A program made the position numbers and the translations under genes. This document shows, in pieces, positions 42,369-57,307 of a stretch of DNA of 57,307 nt (position 1 is its first letter; each line of letters starts with the position of its first letter). The notes beneath the pieces were generated by a model. That model saw only the letters and a program-made list of their open reading frames with translations, made no database searches and was not told where the DNA came from. The DNA is from Gammaproteobacteria bacterium (lineage in GTDB: Bacteria; Pseudomonadota; Gammaproteobacteria; Eutrophobiales; Eutrophobiaceae): positions 1 to 57,307 of the forward strand of contig JANQJZ010000031.1 in NCBI GenBank assembly GCA_028281365.1. Reading direction: 5' to 3'.

Positions 42369-43061
42369 TTAAGCTGGCTGCAATCTTGGTCTACCCGCTT
42401 TCTTCTTTCTCACGCGAATAGTAAGTTTATTTTCAACCCATTCTATAAACTCATCAGAACCGTAAACGCGATTTGATTGTGCTGCTTCCCGAATCTTTTT
42501 TAGTTTGATTTTATCCAAGCTAATATTCATTAACCCACGATAAGCACAGCAACGTTCATTACGGCTTTTACCAAGTTTTATATATTCACTATGGGGAATA
42601 ATGTAACAAGAGGATTGATTCATCCCCGTACATTGATAGCTCGACCATTTATATGAACCAGGCTCGTAAACAATATTACTTCGTATAGGATTCATCTCTA
42701 TATATCGATAACAATCCAGGACATGAAAATCATTTTCAACAAGACAAGAATGATATCGACCTTCCCATAATGTACCACTTCGACCGTATTTAAAATTGAT
42801 ATATCTCACATACCGACGACCCAAATCTTGCAAAGTACGTGATATACCTTCAGAACAATCAGGAGTCATCAACAAGTGTACATGATTTGGCATTAAACAA
42901 TACGAATGCAGCATAACATTATATTTATCTACCGCATCACAGAGATATTCTAGATATTGTTCATAATCATCAGAACCAAAGAAACATGGCAAACGATTAT
43001 TGCCACGTTGGAGGATGTGTTGAGTAATCCCACATAAAGATAAACGACGTAATCTGGCCAT
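42369..43061 (-). CDS. RAYT-type REP-associated tyrosine transposase (Y1_Tnp)
   Basis: The product of about 230 residues has the HUH Y1 transposase signature: QHILQRGNNRLPCFF, SYCLMPNHVHLLMTPD with the HUH pair HVH, and RRYVRYINFKYGRSGTLWEGRYHSCLV with the catalytic Tyr, followed by EMNPIRSNIV. I use the ATG at 43059-43061, preceded by AGGAGG; an earlier frame start adds 8 residues. RAYTs move or multiply REP palindromes in trans. A matching half-REP lies just upstream of the gene (43155-43168). Confidence 0.9.
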   Translation of the reverse strand: MARLRRLSLCGITQHILQRGNNRLPCFFGSDDYEQYLEYLCDAVDKYNVMLHSYCLMPNHVHLLMTPDCSEGISRTLQDLGRRYVRYINFKYGRSGTLWEGRYHSCLVENDFHVLDCYRYIEMNPIRSNIVYEPGSYKWSSYQCTGMNQSSCYIIPHSEYIKLGKSRNERCCAYRGLMNISLDKIKLKKIREAAQSNRVYGSDEFIEWVENKLTIRVRKKKAGRPRLQPA

Positions 43062-43154
43062 ATGCACCCCTCCTTTAATGCACAAACCAGATCCCTTTGC
43101 TAAATTTTTGCTGTTCTTTATATGTAAACAAGTTTAGTACGTTTTAAAACTAAA

Positions 43155-46240: not shown

Positions 46241-46297
46241 TGGTATTTAAACTCAATTTGCGAAGAATCTTGACGAACTAAAATAATAAAACATAAA

Positions 46298-46323
46298 AAA
46301 TCCTCAACTCAAAGAGTTGGGGA
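46298..46323 (-). terminator. rRNA-type terminator after 5S pseudogene
   Basis: ATCCTCAACTC and GAGTTGGGGAT pair around AAA. On the minus strand a T-run follows. The terminator at 56607-56631 is homologous in sequence and position. Confidence 0.75.
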
Positions 46324-46337
46324 TTGTTTATTTAAAA

Positions 46338-46527
46338 GCCTGGCAGTGACCTACTCTCATTAAGCACACCCATGTACTTAACCCTACGGGCGGACTTCGT
46401 CCGTGCAAATCAGCTTTCCTGCTGATTTGTCACATGGGAACTCCCACACTGTCATCGGCGCTAAGCGGTTTCACTTTCGAGTTCCAAATGAGATCGGGTG
46501 GTTCACGCTCGCTATTGCCGCTAGGCA
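46338..46527 (-). pseudogene. 5S rRNA pseudogene interrupted by 70-bp hairpin insertion
   Basis: Without the insert the remaining 120 bases (117 after removing the duplicated TCA) match the intact 5S at 56801-56917 closely, with several changes. The 5' end reads GCCTAGC instead of GCCTGGC and breaks helix I pairing. The insert lies between GTGGGAGTTCCCATGTGA and AGAGTAGG, at the junction of helix IV and loop E, where protein L25 binds in E. coli. TCA occurs on both sides, possibly as a 3-bp target duplication. Substitutions and the insert make a functional 5S unlikely, though processing out of the insert cannot be excluded. Confidence 0.85.
46360..46429. mobile_element. 70-bp multi-hairpin element (copy A) in 5S sequence
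   Basis: In + orientation it holds four stems: TTAAGCACA...TGTACTTAA (9 bp, one G-T pair), CCC-TAC-GGG, CGGAC-TTC-GTCCG and CAAATCAGC...GCTGATTTG (9 bp). Copy B at 56653-56717, reverse-complemented, has the same order and core. There is no coding content; a REP/MITE-like element moved in trans is the likely class. Confidence 0.7.
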
Positions 46528-46544
46528 AACTGGTTGAGTATTAT

Positions 46545-46584
46545 ATGGTCAAGTCTCACGGGTACACGAATTGGTTAGCTTCAC
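46545..46584 (-). pseudogene. Remnant of the 23S rRNA 3' end
   Basis: TGGTCAAGTCTCACGGG and GGTTAGCTTCAC match the tail of the 23S gene at 57066 onward, in the same order beyond the 5S, with a diverged stretch between. After 46584 the match ends, so only about 40 bp of 23S remain. The spacer before it lacks the MITE present in the intact operon. Confidence 0.75.
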
Positions 46585-56531: not shown

Positions 56532-56606
56532 TCGTTGTATTATGTGTGCCGTAGAAAAGTCTAATCGTATTCTCTAATGACAAGTTTCAGATTCCAAACA
56601 AAAAAA

Positions 56607-56631
56607 ATCCTCAGTCCAAAGAGCTGAGGAT
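56607..56631 (-). terminator. rRNA-type terminator after 5S remnant
   Basis: ATCCTCAG and CTGAGGAT form the stem, followed on the minus strand by a T-run. It is homologous to the terminator at 46298-46323. Confidence 0.75.
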
Positions 56632-56644
56632 TGTTTATTTAAGA

Positions 56645-56752
56645 GCCTGGCACAAATTCATCTGGAATGAATTTGGACGCGAAGCGCCCGAAGGGTGGAA
56701 TACATGAATGTATTCCATCAATGACCTACTTTAATTCAATACACTGACAGGC
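56645..56752 (-). pseudogene. Fragment of a second tandem 5S rRNA with insertion
   Basis: GCCTGGCA, then after the insert TGACCTACTTT, matches the 3' end of the intact 5S, followed by a short diverged stretch and GACAGGC that recalls the 5' end of helix I. The 5S middle is gone. It sits directly beyond the intact 5S and its terminator, so the operon once ended in two 5S genes. Confidence 0.65.
56653..56717. mobile_element. 65-bp multi-hairpin element (copy B) in 5S fragment
   Basis: In + orientation: CAAATTCAT...ATGAATTTG (9 bp), CGC-GAA-GCG, CCC-GAA-GGG and TGGAATACAT-GA-ATGTATTCCA (10 bp). Reverse-complemented it gives the same order as copy A: a long stem, CCCTTCGGG, a CTTCG-loop stem, and a CAAAT...ATTTG stem. 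It is inserted in the opposite orientation to copy A and at a different 5S site. Confidence 0.7.
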
Positions 56753-56800: not shown

Positions 56801-56917
56801 GCCTGGCAGTGACCTACTTTCACATGGGAACTCCCACACTATCATCGGCGCTAAGCGGTTTCACTTCCGAGTTCGAAATGGGATCGGGTGGTTCACGCTC
56901 GCTAATGCCGCCAGGCA
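56801..56917 (-). rRNA. rrf: 5S rRNA
   Basis: Read on the minus strand from TGCCTGGCGGC to GTCACTGCCAGGC, this is a complete 5S of about 117 nt with paired helix I (GCCTGGC/GCCAGGC), CCACCCGATCCCATTTCGAA in loop C and the loop E sequence AAAGTAGGTC. It is in the usual place after 23S. Confidence 0.96.
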
Positions 56918-56925
56918 AACTGGTT

Positions 56926-57005
56926 GATTTTCAAAGGGGTCAGAGTCAATTGATCTTAAAAAACTTTCGTGCCAGATCAATTGACTCTGACCCCTCTTGA
57001 AAATC
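56926..57005. mobile_element. 80-bp palindromic MITE in the 23S-5S spacer
   Basis: The arms begin GATTTTCAA and end TTGAAAATC. Between them, GGGGTCAGAGTCAATTGATC and its exact complement face each other around a 17-nt centre. The end GGGGTCAGAGT is shared with the half repeat beside the RAYT gene. The decayed operon copy at 46.5 kb lacks it, so it is an insertion into the spacer. Confidence 0.85.
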
Positions 57006-57065
57006 GAATTCGGAAAACTGATTTAAGTATAACGCATATAACGTCACAAACTGCTTGAGTATTAT

Positions 57066-57307
57066 ATGGTCAAGCCTCACGGGCAATTAGTACTGGTTAG
57101 CTTCACACATTACTGCGCTTCCACACCCAGCCTATCAACCTCGTAGTCTACGAGGGCCCTTCAGAGAGCTTAAAGCTCTAGGGAGATCTCATCTTGAGGG
57201 GGGCTTCCCGCTTAGATGCTTGCAGCGGTTATCCCGTCCGTTCGTAGCTACCCGGCAATGCCACTGGCGTGACAACCGGAACACCAGAGGAACGTCCACT
57301 CCGGTCC
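57066..57307 (-). rRNA. rrl: 23S rRNA, 3' end (partial)
   Basis: The minus strand reads ...AAGATGAGATCTCC... and ends GTGAAGCTAACCAGTACTAATTG, CCCGTGAGGCTTGACCAT, the 3' tail of bacterial 23S (AACCGGTACTAAT...CCGTGAGGCTT in E. coli). The gene continues off the right edge. Confidence 0.97.

Follow-up and report, generated by a model that had tools for sequence, protein, structure and literature searches.

The window analysed here, a stretch of 57,307 nucleotides, is one contig of a 2.2-Mb draft genome in 76 contigs. An Rfam search of the window found two 5S rRNA genes, both on the minus strand. One is the intact operon 5S (56801..56915; RF00001, 94.3 bits), which follows the end of a 23S gene; the contig ends inside this 23S, and a search of the assembly for a 16S gene found none. 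The other, 10 kb away on the same contig, is a 115-nt 5S core interrupted by a hairpin-rich insert (46338..46525). The 23S-5S spacer of the intact operon (56928-57002) contains an inverted, REPIN-like pair of GGGGTCAGAGTCAATTGATCT, a repeat also found upstream of a RAYT-type Y1 transposase gene (42369-43085, minus strand; GGGGTCAGAGTGAATT upstream). The same spacer carries a duplicated CAANCAGTTTG.

The split 5S is recognised by the Rfam 5S model RF00001 on the minus strand (46525-46405) with 51.1 bits, against 94.3 bits for the intact copy (56915-56801). When its flanks were joined by script, they gave a core of 115 nt, equal in length to the operon 5S, with 7 substitutions, no indel and 94% identity. 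Because the joined flanks are gapless over 115 nt, the insert must comprise exactly 73 bp (46357-46429) between 5S nucleotides 96 and 97. A preliminary description of this DNA had reported a nearly complete 5S with a 70-bp insert, and had proposed fitting RF00001 with and without the insert region; the split 5S is confirmed here, and the length of the insert is corrected. Nucleotides 96/97 correspond to about A99/G100 in E. coli numbering, inside loop E, and not to the junction of helix IV and loop E where the insert had originally been placed.

Upstream of the split 5S lie about 60 nt of a 23S 3' end with a short 23S-5S spacer (46526..46583, minus strand), identified by alignment to the 23S 3' end at 57047-57140. 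Downstream is a terminator-like hairpin (46299..46325, minus strand), homologous to one at 56596-56652 (family D4). Flanked in this way by a 23S relic and a terminator, the split 5S is the 3' end of an rrn operon that has become displaced. Inspection of the region in front of it revealed no rrn-like promoter or operon. The intact copy has some non-canonical pairs of its own; beyond these, pairs 4:111 (helix I) and 29:49 (helix III) are broken in the split copy. A lone 3'-operon relic with additional broken pairs and no visible rrn promoter, in a genome with an intact 5S elsewhere, is, as judged from its sequence, a spare and decayed rrn pseudogene and no working expanded 5S. The suspicion of a pseudogene voiced earlier, partly from the helix I mismatch, is therefore upheld.

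Immediately 3' of the intact 5S, a first terminator is followed by a second 5S relic, AAAGTAGGTCA...TGCCAGGC. The 3' end of this relic (TGCCAGGC) and its terminator (56596..56652, minus strand) form a repeat homologous to 46289-46345, so that the two relics share the same terminator (57 nt, 88% identity). The second relic is likewise interrupted, by a 68-bp insert at 56653..56720.

Architecture and distribution of the hairpin element

The two 5S inserts are copies of one element of about 70 bp, with the layout TGA-hairpin-CCCTNCGGG-hairpin-hairpin-TTTG. Copy 1 (TCATTAAG...GATTTG, 46357..46429) lies on the plus strand, opposite to its 5S, has clean junctions and is matched by a covariance model of the element, R1, with 72.0 bits at 46356-46433. 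Copy 2 is on the minus strand (76.2 bits with R1; junctions GGTCAT|TGATGG...GAATTTG|TGCCAGG), and differs from copy 1 in its orientation relative to the 5S and in its 5S position. Both begin with TGA (TCA in copy 1), followed by a first hairpin with a TCC-type loop, CCCTNCGGG, a short hairpin, TCC and a third hairpin, again with a TCC-type loop, and end in TTTG. The string of hairpins that had been noticed in copy 1 far exceeds chance expectation, with a single-strand DNA fold z-score of -6.3 and none of 200 shuffles as stable. A first blastn impression that the insert was single-copy was overturned by the copy in the second 5S relic and by copies in tRNA genes.

An alignment of 36 copies reveals strong covariation: 90.5% of cells are paired, with 229 double changes, and the covariation score is 0.570 compared to 0.174 for shuffles and at most 0.078 for slid controls. 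G-U pairs make up about 0.6% of the element in larger sets (12/1828 and 14/2531 cells), whereas the tRNA acceptor and T stems of the same loci have 4.1% (27/660). Such extreme covariation with almost no G-U pairs favours palindromes that are selected or corrected at the DNA level. At the ends of the element, the 36-copy alignment exhibits only weak outer GA/TC pairing in place of terminal inverted repeats. The element was accordingly not classified as a MITE, given this weak end pairing and left and right trinucleotides that are equal in just 5 of 162 copies.

The DNA search, for which a tRNA-linked copy served as the query, found relatives in 18 of the 53 genomes of the order. Model R1, built afterwards, finds 16 copies in the source genome and extends the family to 37 of the 53 genomes of the order (up to 45 copies each), 125 of 274 genomes of the class and 74 of 299 genomes of the phylum, other classes included. 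Plasmid and phage collections queried with one element gave short, chance-level matches only. No Rfam family matches the element at gathering score, and no published description was found in the open literature that was searched, subscription papers being outside its scope. The family is thus widespread and apparently undescribed.

Some copies bear signs of mobility. More specifically, certain copies at unrelated loci in two genomes (G134 and G001; L098/L135, L124/L140, L123/L168) align over about 75-79 bp only. Other pairs in the same genomes share longer flanks, however, and some copies lie within larger repeats (G331, G383), both of which count against a mobile element, as does the fact that neither a transposition event nor an empty site at the population level was observed. 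The identical copies in G331 were considered as recent jumps and dismissed, since a longer repeat contains them. In another class of the phylum, the element is embedded in longer repeats that have GGGCTCCGCCC-like or CGGGGGCGATTATCGCCCCCG palindromes on their flanks (L220-L230 in G331, L231-L235 in G383).

Copies also occur in frame inside protein genes of genome G187, namely in a PglZ protein, an SNF2-type helicase and a DUF6079 protein. In the helicase, similarity to solved structures picks up again right behind the inserted residues, and the aligned CHD4 and DDM1 have about 21 residues fewer. In the DUF6079 protein, the best-matching stretch stops at residue 968, which is the insert position. 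The surrounding locus (L154) is a defence-type island with PglZ, SNF2 helicase, DNA methylase and DUF6079 genes and many in-frame copies. Another locus of this genome (L155) holds a tandem array of at least four units with an exact 72-nt period. The clustering of copies in G187 brought integron attC sites into consideration; these were rejected on account of the location of the copies inside defence-island genes, many in frame, and of ends that misfit GTTRRRY.

Insertion sites and junctions

Transfer RNA T-loops and 5S genes are the preferred sites in this lineage. Of the 15 copies that could be located in the source genome, 12 have a tRNA or 5S gene no more than 175 bp away; by our own arithmetic, about 0.6% of the genome is that close to such a gene. 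The comparison serves as a guide only, given the non-independence of the copies and a seed query that was itself tRNA-linked. In the distant genomes G134, G187 and G176, most copies are not near tRNAs.

A single rule, Y|T(C/G), describes the junctions, which show neither duplication nor loss of the target; both 5S sites comply. Across 93 junctions, TGA is preceded by T (.68) or C (.25), and TTTG is followed by T (1.00) and then C (.87) or G (.11). In tRNA genes, where the exact site could be read wherever an intact tRNA of the same kind adjoins the split one, entry occurs precisely at T54|T55 of the T-loop, again without loss or duplication. The element enters the T-loop sense or antisense, TTCGAA being a palindrome, and sense copies often have C where the intact tRNA has T54. 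The TCA duplication that had been suspected around copy 1 does not survive these comparisons. Its left TCA is the copy 1 version of the TGA end of the family and, with equal trinucleotides so rare among the 162 copies, the resemblance is best regarded as coincidental and not as a target-site duplication.

Behind the element, the 3' tail of the tRNA is almost perfect, with 21-22 of 22 nt identical to the neighbouring tRNA in seven examples, while an inverted T-arm commonly takes the place of the 5' part of split tRNAs. T-loop insertions frequently have such an inverted copy, made from the T-arm of the local tRNA, beside them (L048, L065, L067, L039, L106), as in TCGAACCT-TCC-AGGTTCTCATCCTGGCACCC at L106. 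These inverted copies suggest palindrome-forming template switching. Several copies lie inside a different palindromic repeat, with arms like CTTTTGGTTAC/AAAGTA (L147, L099, L101, L102, L112, L113), and on this ground the element may prefer hairpin-forming targets.

Origin of the split 5S gene

The explanation preferred here, with a probability of about 0.87, is that a redundant 5S, left behind as the 3' remnant of an rrn operon, was struck by a small non-autonomous hairpin element whose family, junction rule, covariation and distribution are directly observed. The element would move as folded single-stranded DNA, with a trans-acting nuclease or recombinase cutting and joining at both of its ends, and might survive in an RNA gene only if the genome keeps another, intact copy of that gene. 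The near-perfect tRNA tails count against this explanation, as plain decay of a redundant copy does not account for them. A more ambitious proposal is that the family constitutes a new class of gene-less mobile DNA in several classes of Pseudomonadota, which lands in the tRNA T-loop and in 5S genes, duplicates the 3' end of the RNA gene while an intact tRNA is kept, is moved as folded single-stranded DNA and has self-correcting palindromic arms; this is advanced tentatively and is, taken as a whole, unlikely.

The preliminary description had also entertained an expanded 5S rRNA in which the insert is either tolerated or cut out of the transcript. Cases of this kind are known from Halococcus and Thermoanaerobacterium, and an expanded 5S has been reported for P. 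piscicida DE2-B. Expansion segments in 5S are known (PMC7812874), and the core here has kept its length, its 94% identity, its 23S tail and its terminator. The insert is nevertheless a dispersed repeat that runs antisense to the 5S and breaks loop E, its stems look DNA-selected rather than rRNA-selected, and the host has two extra broken pairs and neither an operon nor an rrn-like promoter in front, with an intact 5S present; a functional expanded 5S is accordingly most improbable, and excision from the RNA is neither needed nor indicated. It is also highly unlikely that the element is a structured noncoding RNA acting in the transcript, for example as a tRNA-operon processing or terminator module. 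Its CCCUNCGGG loops resemble UNCG tetraloops and many copies lie just downstream of tRNAs, but the copies occur in both orientations relative to tRNA and 5S and in frame inside protein genes too, almost lack G-U pairs and belong to no Rfam family. An artefact of assembly or sequencing might be suspected in a draft genome with a contig break inside 23S and no 16S found. Its probability is negligible given the family membership of the insert, which recurs 16 times in this genome, and the identical junction logic in many independent genomes, and the assembly error once named as a possible refutation can be set aside.

The RAYT gene at 42369-43085, 3.3 kb from the split 5S, invites the idea of a REP/REPIN element moved by its product. 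TnpA-REP enzymes cleave single-stranded DNA at CT (PMC8266576), which is similar to the C|T left junction. REPs require GTAG and RAYTs (PMC8266576), however, and no GTAG-like guide tetranucleotide was found at the ends of the element. The repeat that accompanies the local RAYT is another one, GGGGTCAGAGTSAATT; among 30 Y1 loci scanned with R1, no convincing element was found, with two weak matches of 19 and 15 bits; and the genomes G007, G015 and G023 have 9, 44 and 13 copies and no Y1 genes in a search for them. The RAYT of the window was rejected as the mobiliser on these grounds, and a REP/REPIN origin is barely credible. The search for a mobiliser of the element found none.

With a hairpin element as the preferred explanation, what looked like an isolated 5S oddity can be placed in a widespread, apparently undescribed repeat family. 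Such a family provides a mechanism by which at least some insertion-bearing 5S remnants may have arisen, and explains the tRNA 3'-end fragments beside intact tRNA genes found here. Exact entry at T54|T55 and G-U-free covariation make the question of the moving enzyme directly testable. For annotation, tRNAs split at the T-loop in this way and oversized 5S genes of this kind should not be taken for introns or expansion segments.

Relation to known systems

Stand-alone displaced 5S genes are known (PMC7812874), and in Peptococcaceae and Pseudoalteromonas, 5S-like remnants with large insertions follow normal 5S genes, each remnant being preceded by a terminator, and have been called pseudogenes (Stepanov and Fox 2021, PMC7812874). 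In that study each insert was treated as a 5S expansion segment, whereas the insert described here recurs across the genome and is found in tRNA genes and proteins as well. Rickettsia palindromic elements (RPEs), known for in-frame insertion (PMC10969869), are by description similar small, hairpin-rich repeats that stand in frame inside unrelated protein genes. Unlike RPEs (~150 bp), the present element has about 70 bp and four hairpins, a preference for T-loops and 5S, and a spread over Pseudomonadota.

Hairpin ends, a single-strand logic and clean insertion without target duplication are shared with non-autonomous elements of the IS200/IS605 type and with REP/REPIN sequences. Clean insertion was found in both the tRNA and the 5S empty-site comparisons, the empty sites being paralogous RNA genes. 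A fixed left target of 4-5 nt, as in IS200/IS605, was not found, only a pyrimidine being clearly enriched at -1, and the element differs from both groups in having no GTAG and no link with Y1 transposase genes. Entry into the T-loop, with the tRNA 3' end duplicated behind the element, recalls the integrative elements that use tRNA 3' ends. In contrast to these, the element has no genes, is about 70 bp long and inserts in both orientations, and its 3' tail matches whichever local tRNA was struck.
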